Made by a program: the position numbers and the translations under genes
Shown: in pieces, positions 36,328-44,610 of the stretch
How the letters are laid out: the number at the start of each line of letters is the position of its first letter
How positions within the stretch are numbered: the stretch's first letter is position 1
Notes under the pieces: model-generated
Databases searched by the model: none
What the model was told of the DNA's origin: nothing
What the model saw: the letters and a program-made list of their open reading frames with translations, nothing else
DNA from: a bacterium
GTDB lineage: Bacteria; Bacillota; Clostridia; Lachnospirales; Lachnospiraceae
Direction of reading: 5' to 3'
DNA: 64,000 nucleotides
NCBI GenBank assembly: GCA_028724545.1
Contig: JAQYCU010000039.1
Location: 1 to 64,000, forward strand

Positions 36328-36396
36328 GAAGGAAAAAGGAAAAGCGTGCCGTAACATAGTCTTACAGTTGCTTTTGGGTAAGATAAGGGGATGGCT

Positions 36397-37119
36397 ATGA
36401 TAAGAATTGCAGTATGTGACGATGACATGAAAACATGTAATCTATTAGAAGAGTATATCGCAAAAATATGTGATGATATGGATGTGAAATTAGAACTTCA
36501 CATCTACGACAATAGCACAGAATTGTGCGAATGTGTCCAGAAAGGACAGAAATATGAAGTGCTTTTTCTGGACATTGAAATGCCAAATCGGAATGGCATT
36601 GAAGTGGGAAGTTATCTGCGAAAAAATTGTGGTGATGATTCGATTCAGATTGTGTACATATCAGGAAGTGAGTCATACGCTATGAAATTATTTGAAACGC
36701 ATCCTGTTAATTTCCTGATTAAACCACTGGCTTATGAAGCAGTGGAGGAAACTCTCAAAAATTCATTAGAGTTAATGAATACGATGGCACAAAAATTTGT
36801 GTATCGGAAAAAGCAGGACGTCTATTTCGTGGATTACCGGGATATTATGTATTTTAAGAGTAATAACAGAAAGGTTCAGATTGTAATTCCGGATCAGACA
36901 CTGGATTTTTACGGAAAGTTAGAGGAAATATATCAGACACTTCCGGAATCCAGATTTCTGTATATTCACAAGTCATTTATTGTTAACATTGCATTTATAA
37001 AGACCTTTGAGTATAGCAGTTTAAGCCTGCTAAATGGTGAAGTGCTGCCGATATCCCAGTCGAGGAGAAAAGCGATACGGATAGCACAGGAATCTTTTAC
37101 TTTGGGAGGAAATAAATGA
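36397..37119 (+). CDS. LytTR-family response regulator (AgrA-like)
   Basis: 240 residues. A receiver domain with the acidic pocket IRIAVCDDDMKTC and phospho-acceptor Asp59 in LFLDIEMPNRNG, Thr/Ser and Lys positions in VYISGSESYAM and FLIKPL, then a LytTR DNA-binding domain (DIMYFKSNNRKVQIVI... RFLYIHKSFIVNIAFIKTFEY). LytTR proteins bind 9-bp direct repeats about 21 bp apart. AAGGGG lies 6 nt before this ATG, so the track's ATG at 36391 is less likely. It overlaps the kinase gene by 4 bp and shares the locus with agrDB. Confidence 0.93.
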   Translation: MIRIAVCDDDMKTCNLLEEYIAKICDDMDVKLELHIYDNSTELCECVQKGQKYEVLFLDIEMPNRNGIEVGSYLRKNCGDDSIQIVYISGSESYAMKLFETHPVNFLIKPLAYEAVEETLKNSLELMNTMAQKFVYRKKQDVYFVDYRDIMYFKSNNRKVQIVIPDQTLDFYGKLEEIYQTLPESRFLYIHKSFIVNIAFIKTFEYSSLSLLNGEVLPISQSRRKAIRIAQESFTLGGNK

Positions 37120-38387
37120 CGGTATATACTATGGTTTATCTGATTACAGAAGTATTTTATATTTATATTCTGAATCTGTATTTTAGTTCAGTCTTTGAAG
37201 AGCGCAGAACGAATGCATGGGCTTTGGCAGCGACTTATCTGGGTTTTCTGTTAATAGCAGATGGCGAGTATCTGATACTGAATGATTTCAGGCTGAATGC
37301 ATTATTAAACATTCTGTTTATGTTTGCCATTACGCTTCATTATGAATCGACTATGATAAAGCGTATGCTGACAGTGCTGTTATTGTATATTATAATGGCG
37401 ATGATAGAGTCGGTGATTGTGGCCCTGACTGGCCCTATGGCAGAAATATCCCGTGCCGAATATCAGGAAGTTTTAGGACCTGTTTTTATTAAGTTCGCAT
37501 TGTATATTGTAGTGTTACTGTTGCGCAACTTTAAAAATATCAGAAAGAATATGATATTTCCGAAAACATTGTTACTCAGTATTTTTCTGATTCCGTGCAG
37601 CTCGGTGTATTTGATTTTTAGTATGATTGTCAATAACTTTAATCATTTTGACAAAGTGCAGTTAGTTATCTGCATTTCAGCTATTTTACTGATTAATGTA
37701 GTGGCATTTTATCTGTACGATACGATTGTCAGATATTATAACGAACGAATGGAAACAGAGTTAGTCAAACAGGAAAAACTGTATTATCTGAAACAATTTG
37801 AGTATCTGAAGGACAATGTGGAAGAGGTAAAGGCATTTCGTCACGATTTAAGGAATCATCTGGGCGTTTTGTATGCGATGGTAGACACGCAGCCGGAAGA
37901 AGCCAAAAAGTATATCACAGAAATGAATGGCAGTATGACTGCCGGCAACCTGTATGCCAGAACAGGTAATATTATCATTGACAGCATTGTTAATACGAAA
38001 TTAGCAAAAGCAAAAGAGAATAATGTTGAGATTATTACAAATTTTACAGTTCCTTCTGAAGTGGCAGTGGAGTCATCTGATTTGGTGGCTGTGCTGGGGA
38101 ATATGCTTGATAATGCATTGAATGCTTCCTTGAAGTTGAAAGAAGGACGCAAAATAGAAGTTCAGATTCGTTTTGAAAGAGGAATGTTGCGAATCGACAT
38201 TTCCAATGCATTCGATGGCAATCTCAAGTATGAGAATAACCACCTGGTAACAACAGCGCGAAGGAAAGACGGACATGGTTATGGCATACGGAATATAGAA
38301 AATGCTGTCAGAAAATATCGTGGATGCTATGAGGTATCCTGCAGTGAGTCTATCTTTTGTGCAAGTGCCATAATGTATGTAGCATAA
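37116..38387 (+). CDS. GHKL sensor histidine kinase (AgrC-like)
   Basis: 423 residues. Six or seven N-terminal membrane helices (about 1-210), a coiled linker, phospho-acceptor His243 in VKAFRHDLRNHLG, and a GHKL ATPase domain with N-box LGNMLDNALNASLKL and G-box DGHGYGIRNIENAV. The class HPK10 topology is that of receptors for cyclic peptide pheromones. It is expected to detect the thiolactone made by the following agrD/agrB. ATGA overlap with the regulator gene implies translational coupling. Confidence 0.92.
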   Translation: MTVYTMVYLITEVFYIYILNLYFSSVFEERRTNAWALAATYLGFLLIADGEYLILNDFRLNALLNILFMFAITLHYESTMIKRMLTVLLLYIIMAMIESVIVALTGPMAEISRAEYQEVLGPVFIKFALYIVVLLLRNFKNIRKNMIFPKTLLLSIFLIPCSSVYLIFSMIVNNFNHFDKVQLVICISAILLINVVAFYLYDTIVRYYNERMETELVKQEKLYYLKQFEYLKDNVEEVKAFRHDLRNHLGVLYAMVDTQPEEAKKYITEMNGSMTAGNLYARTGNIIIDSIVNTKLAKAKENNVEIITNFTVPSEVAVESSDLVAVLGNMLDNALNASLKLKEGRKIEVQIRFERGMLRIDISNAFDGNLKYENNHLVTTARRKDGHGYGIRNIENAVRKYRGCYEVSCSESIFCASAIMYVA

Positions 38388-38406
38388 CAGCAAAATACAA
38401 AAAAAG

Positions 38407-38450
38407 AAATCAGAAAATTGTTTGTCAAGAGCAATTTTCTGATTTTTTTT
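38407..38450 (+). terminator. Terminator between agr-type kinase gene and agrD unit
   Basis: Perfect 13-bp stem AATCAGAAAATTG / CAATTTTCTGATT followed by T8. It separates the regulatory operon from the peptide operon. Confidence 0.92.
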
Positions 38451-38475
38451 AATTTTTTTAAAAACTTTTTTAAAA

Positions 38476-38540
38476 TTCAACAAAAACACTGTAAATTTCT
38501 ACAAAACGCTCAAAACGGAAATTTTAAATAGTGCTATACT
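38476..38540 (+). promoter_or_regulatory. Activator-type promoter of agrDB with two direct repeats
   Basis: TTCAACAAAAAC (38476) and TTCTACAAAAC (38497) are spaced 21 bp start to start, the phasing of LytTR operators. TATACT (38535-38540) is a good -10, while the -35 position (CAAAAC) is poor, which suits an activator-dependent promoter with the repeats at about -70 and -50. Binding by the adjacent LytTR regulator is inferred. Confidence 0.6.
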
Positions 38541-38571: not shown

Positions 38572-38646
38572 ATGTATTCACGTTGCATTGATACTGGGTG
38601 GGATACAAATGAGTTTTCTCAGGGCAACTTGTTATCCGTCGGATAA
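38572..38646 (+). CDS. Possible 24-residue leader peptide upstream of agrD
   Basis: ATG with GAGGAG at 5-nt spacing opens a 24-codon frame, MYSRCIDTGWDTNEFSQGNL..., ending TAA at 38646. It starts about 25 nt after the predicted transcription start. Its last codons form the 5' arm and loop of the hairpin CTTGTTATCC / GGATAACAAG. I do not recognise the peptide. It could be a regulatory leader whose translation controls the hairpin and agrD initiation. It may also be fortuitous; too short to judge by composition. Confidence 0.45.
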   Translation: MYSRCIDTGWDTNEFSQGNLLSVG

Positions 38647-38650
38647 CAAG
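38628..38650 (+). promoter_or_regulatory. Leader hairpin before the agrD ribosome binding site
   Basis: Perfect 10-bp stem CTTGTTATCC / GGATAACAAG with GTC loop and no T-run. It overlaps the end of the upstream ORF and stops 7 nt before AAAGGAGG. Confidence 0.8.
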
Positions 38651-38676
38651 ACGAGCGAAAGGAGGTCTGGAGGCTT

Positions 38677-38820
38677 ATGAAAAAATTGCTAAGAAAGAGT
38701 ATGCAGTTTTTGGCTACTTTCGGAATTGTTGTAACAGCTACTGCTGCAAATTCAACATGTCTGCTGTTTGCACATCAACCTGAAATGCCAGAAGGCTACA
38801 AGTCACTCCGGAAATTCTAA
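38677..38820 (+). CDS. agrD: AgrD-type cyclic thiolactone autoinducer precursor
   Basis: 47 residues, below the ORF-track cut-off. An amphipathic N-terminal leader (MKKLLRKSMQFLATFGIVVT) is followed by the core around ANSTCLLFA, then the acidic C-terminal recognition tail HQPEMPEGYKSLRKF. Aligning with S. aureus (YSTCDFIM then DEVEVPKEL) and with what I recall of C. perfringens (CLWFT then HQPEEPKSL) predicts a five-residue ring CLLFA closed by Cys28. Two Shine-Dalgarno sequences (AAAGGAGG and TGGAGG) precede the ATG. The stop overlaps the agrB start (TAATG). Function is signalling outside the cell after processing by AgrB. Confidence 0.93.
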   Translation: MKKLLRKSMQFLATFGIVVTATAANSTCLLFAHQPEMPEGYKSLRKF

Positions 38821-39401
38821 TGCTGGAAAAGATATCTGATAAATTAACAAATGCCATGCTAAGAGAAGATACGATTCAGGAAGAAAGCAAAGAACTTTAT
38901 TCTTTTGGCATACAGCAGGGACTTTTCCTGCTGATAGGCGTCATATCATTTATATTCATTGGATGGTGTTTTGGAATGGTATGGCAGGCGTTGCTTTATC
39001 TGGTATTTTACATGCCTATCAGAATTTACGCTGGAGGTTATCATGCTCCGACACAGAAACATTGTTATGTGTTTTCATGTGCCATGCTGGTGCTGGTATT
39101 AGCAGTTATGAAAATAGCGCGCGCACAAACAACTGCATATCTGGTGCTGACGATAGTGGCCGGCGTGGTATTATTTTTATTGGCTCCTGTGGAGGATAAA
39201 CATAAGCCACTCGATGAAAAAGAGGAGTATGTCTACAGAAAAAGAGCATATATTGCTATCAGTATAGAGTTGCTATTATGCCTTATCTGTGTAATGTTGC
39301 GATGGAAAATGCTTTTATGTATCTGTTCTGCAGTAATAACAAATGCGGGTATGACTGCTTTAGGATATATGGTAAATAAAAGCAGAAACACAAATAGGTG
39401 A
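38820..39401 (+). CDS. agrB: AgrB-type peptide-processing membrane protease
   Basis: 193 residues with four to six membrane helices. The catalytic pair His75 and Cys82 lies in RIYAGGYHAPTQKHCYVFS, seven residues apart as in S. aureus AgrB. AgrB removes the AgrD tail and forms the thiolactone ring. The gene starts at the last base of the agrD stop codon, so synthesis is coupled. Length fits the family. A GH5 glycanase begins 13 bp downstream. Confidence 0.95.
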   Translation: MLEKISDKLTNAMLREDTIQEESKELYSFGIQQGLFLLIGVISFIFIGWCFGMVWQALLYLVFYMPIRIYAGGYHAPTQKHCYVFSCAMLVLVLAVMKIARAQTTAYLVLTIVAGVVLFLLAPVEDKHKPLDEKEEYVYRKRAYIAISIELLLCLICVMLRWKMLLCICSAVITNAGMTALGYMVNKSRNTNR

Positions 39402-39414
39402 AAGGAGAATGAGT

Positions 39415-41409
39415 ATGAAGCGAGGAAGATTGAAACGAATAACTAGTTTTCTTTTATCAACAGCATTAATCGGCTCAACCATAGTAACAGGTACAGCCGT
39501 AAATGCAGAAGAGTCAGCCAACTTAATTACAAATCAGTCGGTAACAGGAAGTGCTACCTATGTTGGTACATATCTGAAATCAGATTACTATTCAGCAGGT
39601 TATACCGGACTGGAGATTTCATTTACGTACACGGACCTTGGCACTCTTGCATCTGACAATACAACAGGATTCAATGACACATTTGAATTTCTGGTATTTG
39701 ACAGTGCATGGGGTGGCTGGAACTGTACAAAGGTAGGTCCTGCGGGATATGACCAGACGGAAAACCTTACGGCATCAGATGTTTCGGAAGACACCGAGTA
39801 TACGGTCACGGTTCCGATTGACACAATCGAGGACAAATTAAGTACTTCAAATCCGGTACAGGGTATTAACCTTCAGACCGGTGGAATCGGAAATACGGCA
39901 GTAACAATCAACTCACTTAAATATGTAACAGGTACTGTAGAAAGCCAGCCAACGGTATTAACGGGAGCGTGGCATAAGACAGGTGTTGATGGTGATACGG
40001 AGGAACAGTATGGAACGATGAATCTTACCAGTGGATTTGCAAATGTATATGCTAATCCGTGGAACATTTCTGTATCTAATTTCTCAGTTTCTACATTTAC
40101 AACACCGGTGGTAGCAGTAACAGTAGAGTATGCTGATGTTACAGGTGACCCGATTTATCCACAGTCAGAAATCCTGGATTCTACTACTTATCAGCCGATA
40201 GTAGCGAATTATCCACAGGTGTCAGAAGGAGGAACTGTTACATATGTAACGCAAATTCCAACTACAATGACATCTATGCTCCTTGCATATGACACCTGCA
40301 CCGTTAAAAAAGTAGAAATCTATGATGAGGCAGAAAGTTATACAACAGCTAAGACAAACTTATCAACAACAAATATTACAGCTGCAGTATCGCCATGCTG
40401 GAATCTTGGCAATGCCTTAGAATCTACAAGCAACGGGGAAACAGGAGAAACACTCTGGGGTAATCCGACAATCAACAAGCGTCTTTTTAAGCAGGTTGCT
40501 GCTGTCGGTTTCAAATCTGTTAGAATCCCTGTAACCTGGCTGAGTGCAGTTACAGTAAATGGCAGCACCGGAACAGTTAATACACAGGAATGTGATGCTA
40601 TTCTTGACAGAGTCAAAGAAGTTGTAGATATGGCAATAGATTATGACTTATTTGTTATTATTGATGTGCATCATGATGGTGGAGAAAATGTAACCGGAAA
40701 ATGGCTGGATATTACAGCATCAAACCAGACCGGTATACAGAATGCTTTTGAAGCTCTTTGGACTCGGATTGCACAAAGATTCAGAAGTTATGACCAGCAT
40801 CTGATATTTGAATCTATGAATGAAGTAATGGAGTCAAATAATTATTCAACAAATGTTTCGGATGAAATCTGGACGAATATTAATGATTTGAATCAGATAT
40901 TTGTGGAGGCAGTCCGTGGTGCTGGAGGAAGCAATACCAACCGTTTCCTGATGGTACCGGGATATAATACGAATATTGACAGTACCGTATCAGCTGGTTT
41001 TAGATTACCGGACGACACTGTGTCAAACCGTCTTATGGTATCGGTGCATTTCTATGACCCATATAATTTCACACTGAACACCGGAGATGGAAGTACAACT
41101 TCTATTACTGAGGCTGAGAGTGCTTATATTGGTACACAGTTTGCCAAGTTAAAAACAACATTTGTAGATGAAGGTATTCCGGTTATCCTGGATGAGTTTG
41201 GTGCCGTGGACAAAGACAATCTGGATGCGATTGCAGCTTATACAACGGAAGTAGTCAGTCAGGCACAGGCAAAAGGCATTGGATATGGTTATTGGGATAA
41301 TGGTTATACCGGTGACTATGGTATGGGATTGTGGAACCGTTATACATACGGACAGACGGCATTAGGTGAACGGCTGCTTCCTATATTAGCTGGCAATACA
41401 GCAGAATAG
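39415..41409 (+). CDS. Secreted glycoside hydrolase family 5 endoglucanase-like enzyme
   Basis: 664 residues. A signal peptide (about 1-32, ending TAVNAEE), one or two beta-sandwich carbohydrate-binding-like modules (about 35-305) and a GH5 (beta/alpha)8 domain from CWNLGNALES to the end. The acid/base is Glu470 in FESMNEV and the nucleophile Glu594 in ILDEFGA; DVHHDGG and SVHFYDPYNF are further family landmarks. It should cut beta-1,4-glucan or a related polysaccharide outside the cell. AAAGGAG lies 7 nt before this ATG and 13 bp separate it from agrB, so it seems to be the effector gene of the quorum-sensing operon. No cell-wall sorting motif or dockerin is seen. Confidence 0.92.
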   Translation: MKRGRLKRITSFLLSTALIGSTIVTGTAVNAEESANLITNQSVTGSATYVGTYLKSDYYSAGYTGLEISFTYTDLGTLASDNTTGFNDTFEFLVFDSAWGGWNCTKVGPAGYDQTENLTASDVSEDTEYTVTVPIDTIEDKLSTSNPVQGINLQTGGIGNTAVTINSLKYVTGTVESQPTVLTGAWHKTGVDGDTEEQYGTMNLTSGFANVYANPWNISVSNFSVSTFTTPVVAVTVEYADVTGDPIYPQSEILDSTTYQPIVANYPQVSEGGTVTYVTQIPTTMTSMLLAYDTCTVKKVEIYDEAESYTTAKTNLSTTNITAAVSPCWNLGNALESTSNGETGETLWGNPTINKRLFKQVAAVGFKSVRIPVTWLSAVTVNGSTGTVNTQECDAILDRVKEVVDMAIDYDLFVIIDVHHDGGENVTGKWLDITASNQTGIQNAFEALWTRIAQRFRSYDQHLIFESMNEVMESNNYSTNVSDEIWTNINDLNQIFVEAVRGAGGSNTNRFLMVPGYNTNIDSTVSAGFRLPDDTVSNRLMVSVHFYDPYNFTLNTGDGSTTSITEAESAYIGTQFAKLKTTFVDEGIPVILDEFGAVDKDNLDAIAAYTTEVVSQAQAKGIGYGYWDNGYTGDYGMGLWNRYTYGQTALGERLLPILAGNTAE

Positions 41410-41544: not shown

Positions 41545-41602
41545 TGTCCTGTAAAACAGGGTTGTCCTGGGGAGTACTGGAAAAGGAGGTACTCCTCAGG
41601 AC
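41545..41602 (+). promoter_or_regulatory. Structured 5' leader with alternative stems
   Basis: TTGTCCTG occurs twice (starting near 41545 and 41564). CAGGAC at the 3' end can pair with either copy; the second choice gives a long stem GTCCTGGGGAGTAC / GTACTCCTCAGGAC with one bulge or mismatch and an AGGAGG-like loop. The first copy can also close CCTGTAAAACAGG. No T-run follows, so it is not a normal terminator. Confidence 0.6.
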
Positions 41603-41649
41603 AATATTTATATGTATCTCTAAATTTTGGAATATTTAGGAGGGAATCG

Positions 41650-44610
41650 ATGTTGAAAAGCAAAAGTCACAAAAAAATAGTTAGTGTAATAGTATCAACA
41701 GCGTTACTTACTACTTCTGTCCTGACACAAGGAACATATACAAAGGCATCTATGGAGCCGGTGTCAGTGACCAAAGGCAATTATTGCGGGGATATCACAT
41801 ACACATATTTCAAGGATGATACAACTGCCGAAGACACAGCATCCTATTTATTGTTTGAAGGTTCCGGGGCTATGAAGAACATAGAGAACACAGGAGTGAT
41901 TAGTGAGTCAGGGGGATATACGCAAGGCACGAGCCAGCTGGAAAATCAGCCATGGATGCAAAACTGCCTTCCGGATGATGGTCTGGACAGTTATGGTAAT
42001 GAATATATTGACACAAAAATATATAATGATAAGACATTCTATCCACTAACTGAAATAATTGTTGGAGAGAATATAACAGATTTAGGGGTAGGAACTTTTG
42101 CCAATTATAGTACTAGAAGACCGGGACCGACTATCCGGTTAGGAAAAAATATCACAAAATTGCCACGTGAGGCTTTTCAGTTTACAAGGAGGTGCAGTAT
42201 TTATCTATATGGAACGGCGGAAAGGGAGATAGATGAAAATGCGTTTATACGTACTGGAACCACTACCTCTACAGGAAATACGATGTATTTTCCTACAGAA
42301 GAAATGAAGGCGACATTTGAAACATATTTAACCAGTGAGGCTATAGGGTGGACAGAGAAAGAGGTCACAAAGTTTCTTTTTGTAAAACCAAGTCTAAAAG
42401 TAGACAGTTCACCATTATACCTTGCTGTAGCAAAAGGAAAAATAGAAAAAAAACTTCATATAAAAGATGAGGTATATGATAATACTTATCCGGAGGATAA
42501 ATGGAATGCTATGCTGGAGGCACTTGCAGATGGAGAAGCTGCTGTGGCAGCAGAAGATGAGGCATTTGCAAATAGTGCTGAAAGCACATTGACAGAAGAA
42601 ACGGTTGCCACGAAGGCAAAAGCCATAAATGATGCTATCGAAGCAATGTCAGATTCGGATTCTAAATATGATGATTTACAGAGTAAAATAGACGAAGCCA
42701 AGAGAATCAAACCGGAAAAGGATTATTCAAAGAGTTCATGGCAAAAGCTGCAGACTGCTATCAATGATGCTGCACAGCTGGGCAGAGAAGAAGATAATGA
42801 AAAATATGAAACAGCGATAGCAAATCTTGATACAGCAATCAATGGAATGGTCAAGATTACGGAATATAGTGAGGTGCTTGCCAATGCAGAAACCGTTGAC
42901 TTAGAGAGCAAATCCAGCCATACAAAAGCAAGCTGGGATGCTTTTATTACGGCTTTTGAAAATGCAAAAGCAATGCCGGATGATGCTACACAGGAAACGG
43001 TAGACAGCCTGACATCTGCGTTGAAAGCAGCACAGGAAGGTCTTGTTACATTAGACCTGACAGCCATCCAGAAAGAAGTTGCGACTTGGAAAAAGAACGC
43101 AGAAGATGAAGAGCGTATGCTGGAATCTTATACGGCTGAATCGTATAAAAAACTGAAAGAAGCATATGATGCAGCAAAAGAAGTTGCTGAGTTGACTGTC
43201 TATGAGCAGACGAAAGTTACAACACAGGAAGAGATTGATGCGTTACTGGCTGCACTTGTGGATGCAGAAAGAAGTTTGGTGGAACTTGATGCAACGGAGG
43301 CAAAACAAGAGTTAAAGGCATATGTTGAGGAAGTAAAAGCAGCAGGGTATCAGGAAAGTGATTATACAGCAGAAACCTGGCAGGAATATGCGACTGCTTT
43401 AAAACTTGCTGAGAGTACTGCTAATAGAACGAGTAATACCCTAATCAGTATTATCAAGGATAGACAGGAAAATCTAAAGGCAGCAGTTGCAAATCTGAAA
43501 AAACAGGAGCGTGAAGAAGGTGTTTATCTGGAGTATACCGGTTCTTGGATAAAACAGGGCAAGGAAAACAAGATGCAGGGTTATGCGCAGATTGACTCAG
43601 AAGCAGTTTTGAAAACAACGGACTGGTGGATGGAGATTTCAGGTCTTGATTTGTCTGGTATGGAAAATCCAGTATTGGAAGTAGAGTATACGGCTGATGG
43701 TGACACATTGCAGATTTCAGCAAACACAACCGGCACTGCGGGATGGAATGACAATAATCCGGTGCTTACCAGTGGTACGGAAAACACAGGAAAATCCAAG
43801 TTTAAATTAGATAAGGATTATAAGTATATTCTTTTGACATCAAATGCTATGTATCTGGAATATAGCAAAGTAAAAATTTATGATGACAAAGCAGGTCTTG
43901 CACAAGAAATACTGACGGCATCCGTGGATAAAGCAAATAAATTGAAAGAGGCTGATTATACAGCAGAAACATGGAAAGTATTTAAGGCTGCTCTGGAGGC
44001 TGCTGCAAAGATTAGTGATTCTTCGACAGAAGAAGAGATTACGGCTGCTGATACAGCATTGAAAAAAGCAATGGAAGGTCTGAAAAAGGCAGAAGTAAAG
44101 AATGTAACACCTGACACAACAAACGAGAATAAGAATGACAGTACGAAGAATACAGACAGTACGAAGAAGACGGCAGTCAAGGGAACAACATTTACTTCCG
44201 GCCAGCTGGTTTATAAAGTAACAAATGCAGCCAGTGGAAAATGCGCCGTAGCAGTGAAAGCCCCAAAAAGCAAAAAAGTAAGGAGTGTTACCATTCCTGC
44301 AACAGTCAAAAAAGCTGGTATTACCTACAAGGTTACTTCTATTGCTGATAATGCGTTTAAGAATTGCAAGAAATTAAAGAAGGTTACCATTGGAAAAAAT
44401 GTTACTTCAATTGGCAAGAGTGCATTTTACAATGCAAAGGCATTAAAGAAAATTACAGTAAAAGCTACTAAGCTGAAGAAAGTAGGCAAGAAGGCATTAA
44501 AGGGTATTAACAAGAAGGCTGTAGTAAAAGTGCCGAAGAAGAGCTTAAAGAAGTATAAACGTCTTTTCAAAAACAAAGGTCAGAAAAAGACGGTTAAAAT
44601 TAAGAAGTAA
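41650..44610 (+). CDS. Large secreted modular protein with FIVAR-like and BspA-type leucine-rich repeats
   Basis: 986 residues. Signal peptide (about 1-33); an N-terminal region with BspA-like LRR traces (LTEIIVGENITDLGVGTFANY); three or more FIVAR-like helical repeats (SWQKLQTAINDAAQLG; SWDAFITAFENAKAMP; TWKVFKAALEAAAKI); a beta-sandwich module at about 625-745 ending VKIYDDKAG; and a C-terminal BspA LRR plus very basic tail (AFKNCKKLKKVTIGKNVTSIG). FIVAR and LRR modules bind glycans or host proteins in known cases. No LPXTG is seen; the basic tail may hold it to the wall. TTAGGAGGG precedes the ATG. It probably complements the GH5 enzyme, which is an inference from position. Confidence 0.8.
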   Translation: MLKSKSHKKIVSVIVSTALLTTSVLTQGTYTKASMEPVSVTKGNYCGDITYTYFKDDTTAEDTASYLLFEGSGAMKNIENTGVISESGGYTQGTSQLENQPWMQNCLPDDGLDSYGNEYIDTKIYNDKTFYPLTEIIVGENITDLGVGTFANYSTRRPGPTIRLGKNITKLPREAFQFTRRCSIYLYGTAEREIDENAFIRTGTTTSTGNTMYFPTEEMKATFETYLTSEAIGWTEKEVTKFLFVKPSLKVDSSPLYLAVAKGKIEKKLHIKDEVYDNTYPEDKWNAMLEALADGEAAVAAEDEAFANSAESTLTEETVATKAKAINDAIEAMSDSDSKYDDLQSKIDEAKRIKPEKDYSKSSWQKLQTAINDAAQLGREEDNEKYETAIANLDTAINGMVKITEYSEVLANAETVDLESKSSHTKASWDAFITAFENAKAMPDDATQETVDSLTSALKAAQEGLVTLDLTAIQKEVATWKKNAEDEERMLESYTAESYKKLKEAYDAAKEVAELTVYEQTKVTTQEEIDALLAALVDAERSLVELDATEAKQELKAYVEEVKAAGYQESDYTAETWQEYATALKLAESTANRTSNTLISIIKDRQENLKAAVANLKKQEREEGVYLEYTGSWIKQGKENKMQGYAQIDSEAVLKTTDWWMEISGLDLSGMENPVLEVEYTADGDTLQISANTTGTAGWNDNNPVLTSGTENTGKSKFKLDKDYKYILLTSNAMYLEYSKVKIYDDKAGLAQEILTASVDKANKLKEADYTAETWKVFKAALEAAAKISDSSTEEEITAADTALKKAMEGLKKAEVKNVTPDTTNENKNDSTKNTDSTKKTAVKGTTFTSGQLVYKVTNAASGKCAVAVKAPKSKKVRSVTIPATVKKAGITYKVTSIADNAFKNCKKLKKVTIGKNVTSIGKSAFYNAKALKKITVKATKLKKVGKKALKGINKKAVVKVPKKSLKKYKRLFKNKGQKKTVKIKK

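Follow-up and report, generated by a model that had tools for sequence, protein, structure and literature searches.

Known agr systems and their relatives

The agr2 locus of Clostridioides difficile has the composition agrACDB and has been proposed to form a single transcript (PMC3754575). The peptide of Clostridium perfringens has a five-residue thiolactone ring and VirS as its reported receptor (PMC7492741), and the AgrD-type ring of Listeria is the pentameric CFMFV (PMC4916163). In Clostridium thermocellum, the AgrD-type pentapeptide is a Ser lactone that is encoded by a gene located outside any agr operon (PMC5322536).

The window examined here, a 64,000-nucleotide stretch of a contig from a Lachnospiraceae genome, adds a complete agr locus from an anaerobe of this family. 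It shares the gene order agrA-agrC-agrD-agrB and the domain content of C. difficile agr2, but whereas a single transcript has been proposed for agr2, in the window agrAC and agrDB are separated by a strong predicted terminator, and agrB is followed by a gene for a cellulase of family GH5. The predicted ring, CLLFA, resembles those of Listeria monocytogenes (CFMFV) and C. perfringens in being pentameric with little or no tail, but the sequences differ. What is shared with C. thermocellum is an AgrD-type cyclic pentapeptide in a degrader of plant fibre; the Ser lactone and non-operon gene of that species are the differences.

The agrA-C-D-B order was also found in other Lachnospiraceae genera and in more distant clostridia. 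These relatives were recovered with an alignment-based scan; a scan of the genome collection using AgrC alone gave no matches. The loci L062 (ring CMLFA) and L072 (from an Anaerocolumna MAG; ring CMLYA) encode some of the closest AgrDs and AgrCs. Both have the same gene order and promoter repeat as the window but differ from it in the ring residues, and L062 also has no GH5 gene behind agrB.

An AgrD precursor with the predicted ring CLLFA

The open reading frame at 38677–38820 on the plus strand runs from ATG to TAA and encodes 47 amino acids (translation MKKLLRKSMQFLATFGIVVTATAANSTCLLFAHQPEMPEGYKSLRKF). It is very probably the agrD gene of a complete agrACDB quorum-sensing locus, in which a peptide with a CLLFA ring would be sensed by AgrC, AgrA-P would provide feedback and transcription would read through into the GH5 gene. 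The product can be divided into a leader (residues 1–24), a possible tail (N25-S26-T27), the predicted ring (C28–A32; codons for Cys-Leu-Leu-Phe-Ala at 38758–38772) and the C-terminal HQPEMPEGYKSLRKF. It has the leader, the five-residue ring starting with Cys and the charged C-terminus of the QPxxP type that are found in the AgrDs of the NCBIfam family TIGR04223 (quorum_AgrD; AgrD family cyclic lactone autoinducer peptide), but no other AgrD in the comparison had the sequence CLLFA.

The ring was positioned using 67 AgrD sequences that were gathered by motif and aligned column by column. As the motif fixed the Cys, a Q/E-P/E pair and a second Pro, and a filter required H, Y, F, N or G at position +5, only the variability of the ring and the conservation of Asn at position −3 constitute independent evidence. 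The entropy of columns +1 to +4 after the Cys was 2.8–3.6 bits, with 65 distinct rings among the 67 sequences, and Asn at −3 was kept in 55. Subject to the filter, position +5 was H or Y in 62 of the 67 and headed a constant Q-P-x-x-P block, so that the alignment consists of a variable ring between the constant flanks [N]xx-C and [HY]-Q-P-x-x-P. The AgrD of the window has this layout, with the Cys/Ser position five residues before the H/Y-Q/E-P block and the ring variable across the alignment. Because the free columns lie inside constant flanks, the ring is predicted to be C28–A32. This supports, by homology, the CLLFA ring that had been proposed in the preliminary description, and it also fits the published pentameric rings.

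CLLFA occurred once among the 67 AgrDs, in the window's own sequence alone, and in a sample of 390 other genomes of the class CLLFA followed by HQP did not occur. The rings nearest to it were CLLFI, CLLFG, CMLFA, CMLYA and CMLFV. A previously unlisted ring sequence is therewith added to a well-known family.

Some known AIPs have rings of other than five residues, and a different size or boundary might also be considered here, for example a six-residue ring in which the last residue is His33. This is very unlikely, as the variability ends before +5, where the constant block begins, and the reported clostridial and listerial rings are pentameric (PMC5322536, PMC7492741, PMC4916163).

Mature form of the peptide

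With CLLFA as the preferred ring, AgrB would cleave the precursor after A32, using His75 and Cys82, and close the five-residue ring via Cys28. A second protease would then remove the leader, either directly before C28 or slightly further upstream, so that the peptide would have no tail or a tail of T, ST or NST. With a tail, the mature peptide may be a thiolactone; with none, it may be a homodetic cyclopentapeptide. The tail-free Listeria peptide is converted from the thiolactone to the homodetic form by an S-to-N acyl shift with a half-life of 1.3 minutes (PMC11297923), and by analogy a CLLFA thiolactone with no tail should be converted in the same way. Because the homodetic form is isobaric with the thiolactone, LC-MS directed at thiolactones alone could miss or misassign the peptide. 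The locus supplies exact masses for a search, with computed [M+H]+ values of 548.290 for CLLFA with no tail, 649.338 with T, 736.370 with ST and 850.413 with NST.

Components of the agrACDB locus

The first gene of the locus, agrA (36391–37119, plus strand; the start may be the ATG at 36397), encodes a 242-aa response regulator with receiver and LytTR domains (PF00072, 45.2 bits; PF04397, 64.7 bits), and its LytTR part matches the structure of Staphylococcus aureus AgrA (3bs1, E=1.7e-6). The agrC gene (37116–38387, plus strand) encodes a 423-aa sensor kinase (PF14501, 66.6 bits) with a hydrophobic N-terminal half, made up of segments over residues 1–207, followed by a phospho-acceptor His243 and a GHKL ATPase domain. 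Residues H243, N329 and D332/N333 (N-box) were invariant in nine homologues. This AgrC, encoded upstream of agrD, would sense the exported CLLFA peptide. The 193-aa membrane peptidase AgrB (38820–39401, plus strand; PF04647, 131.3 bits) has His75 and Cys82 seven residues apart, and both were invariant in an alignment of ten AgrBs. The catalytic His and Cys of S. aureus AgrB are likewise seven residues apart. A sequence search for a solved structural relative of AgrB found none. The features by which an agr locus was recognised, namely an AgrB His/Cys pair, a polytopic GHKL kinase and a LytTR response regulator, were all found.

The genome contains a second agr locus, so that agrACDB could be redundant; it might then, although real, have fallen silent or decayed in this species and yield no active signal. 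We regard this as very unlikely, given that all four genes are intact and the catalytic residues, ribosome-binding sites and promoter repeat are present.

The identity of agrD rests on the match to TIGR04223, on translational coupling to agrB, whose product has the His75/Cys82 pair, and on the adjoining agrC and agrA. The score against TIGR04223 was 36.6 bits (E=3.6e-9; curated cut-off 19 bits), with the match spanning only residues 11–40 of the 47; no Pfam model matched AgrD. Ribosome-binding sites precede the gene at 38658–38673 (AAAGGAGG at 38658–38665 and GGAGG at 38669–38673), and the agrD stop and agrB start share one base (TAATG, 38818–38822). Two other genera have full-length homologues with 49–51 % identity in the same position, flanked by agrC and agrB. 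The region has many short open reading frames of similar length, but that the 47-codon frame arose by chance is practically negligible as an explanation, being already contradicted by the homology evidence, namely the score above the cut-off and the homologues in the same gene position. Judged by its sequence, this is a real gene for the precursor of an AgrD-type cyclic signalling peptide, and an ordinary one. The preliminary description had placed a 47-codon agrD between the promoter and agrB, with Cys as residue 28; the gene is confirmed by this evidence and the Cys by the translated frame. No support was found for the further claim that ORF calling had missed the gene, as agrD is in the mechanical ORF list and is named by the curated TIGR04223 model. 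Comparable genes are annotated as 'cyclic lactone autoinducer peptide' in public records (e.g. NZ_CP067354.1).

The second agr locus (L061, G000:C17:3000-20165) has the order agrA-C-B-D. Its AgrD (C17:12332–12439) differs, with the C-terminal end ACCWILHQPEEPEELSE, and in the end ASACCWILHQPEEPEELSE there are two neighbouring Cys residues where the ring starts. AgrB-like proteins with 26–31 % identity were also seen in phage records (MT836496.1, PV036441.1 and others) from human faeces and from a Ruminococcus phage.

Predicted promoter and operator, and leader, of agrDB

A strong intrinsic terminator, with a 22-bp stem and a T-run, is predicted after agrC at 38402–38450 (plus strand; folding z = −6.3), and agrAC and agrDB are therefore probably separate transcripts. 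Downstream of it is a direct repeat with a 21-bp period, AATTCAACA-N12-ATTTCTACA (38474–38503, plus strand), which is the predicted AgrA operator. Relative to the predicted start site, its centre is at about −58, and it is 31 nt ahead of an extended −10 box, TG-C-TATACT, predicted from the sequence on the plus strand (38535–38540, with the TG at 38532–38533). The corresponding spacing to the −10 box is 27–31 nt in relatives, and the AgrA repeats of S. aureus are centred near −60 (PMC4227749).

A direct repeat with a period of 21 or 22 bp and 0–3 mismatches was found 5′ of agrD in six relatives (L062, L063, L072, L074, L075 and L067), and in each of these the same quality was attained by at most 0.5 % of shuffles. 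It was not detected upstream of agrD in the more distant relatives L077, L083, L086 and L070. This conserved repeat is the probable AgrA operator, and the binding of AgrA-P to it would activate the agrDB promoter and close a feedback loop. It could be used to predict which sites AgrA targets in Lachnospiraceae and in clostridia related to them. Searched against the window's own genome (2.27 Mb), the operator pattern, which was derived partly from the window itself, gave 16 sites at up to two mismatches versus five for a reversed control, and three sites at 0–1 mismatch. The version with a 22-bp period had no matches in the genome at 0–1 mismatch.

A tandem 10-bp CAAAACG repeat between the operator and the −10 box was also considered as an operator and was rejected, as its variants were rarer than those of a reversed-pattern control and it was not common to the relatives. 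The agrD leader contains a perfect 10-bp hairpin just upstream of the ribosome-binding site (38628–38650, plus strand), and the leader as a whole folded no better than shuffles. A known riboswitch or RNA family was discounted, as Rfam gave no match in the leader, hairpin included. The Rfam search of the agr locus for an effector RNA of the RNAIII type also gave no match.

A cellulase gene directly behind agrB

The unusual feature of this agr locus is the secreted cellulase gene directly behind it, a modestly interesting operon arrangement. The gene (39415–41409, plus strand; 664 aa; PF00150, 199.4 bits) starts 13 bp past the agrB stop, with its own ribosome-binding site, and any promoter of its own would have to overlap agrB. 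It is apparently on the agrDB transcript, which would continue into it, and the signal would then control the cellulase. A perfect 18-bp hairpin after the GH5 gene (41561–41605, plus strand; z = −5.7) has AAGGAGG at the loop and no clear U-run. It is the probable end or attenuation point of the agrDB-GH5 transcript, and may be a terminator or a translational control element. It is not a repeated element, as there is a single copy in the genome. The next gene (41650–44610, plus strand; PF13306) encodes a secreted leucine-rich repeat (LRR) surface protein of the FIVAR/BspA type and is probably on a separate transcript from GH5.

The GH5 gene and the gene for the FIVAR/BspA-type LRR protein are conserved as a pair in the window and in L180–L183, which together represent five species of the genus, although the surroundings of the pair differ in each, and the GH5 proteins of the four congeners are 38–60 % identical over their length. 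In L181, a gap of several hundred bases precedes the GH5 gene. No agr genes were found beside the pair in L180–L183, where some of the contigs are short, and no GH5 gene was found behind agrB in the agrACDB relatives. A conserved link between agr and the cellulase was therefore rejected, and of the species sampled only this one has the agrDB-GH5 order. With the link missing from the others, it may be incidental. The apparent placement of a cellulase gene in the signal operon makes this locus a modest system for testing whether fibre degraders couple public goods to signalling.

A copy of the predicted operator near ssrA

A copy of the predicted operator, identical at 29 of 30 bases with the spacer included and one of the three genomic sites at 0–1 mismatch, was found on the minus strand of another contig of the same genome (G000:C12:10829-10858; L216:7830-7859). 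It lies downstream of ssrA at a distance of about 560 bp (tmRNA at L216:6925-7268) and faces a stretch in which no gene of more than about 40 codons is present before the tmRNA is reached. This copy may be a second AgrA target, the promoter of a small RNA, or a relic. A more elaborate arrangement, in which the agrDB promoter directly drives the cellulase as third gene of the signal operon and AgrA-P also drives the ssrA-side promoter to produce a short RNAIII-like effector transcript, is unlikely. If it were true, signal and public-good production would be locked together and an anaerobe would have an RNAIII-like effector. A further site resembling the operator, at G000:C29:25234, points into a gene that is encoded on the other strand, and was judged to be a chance match.
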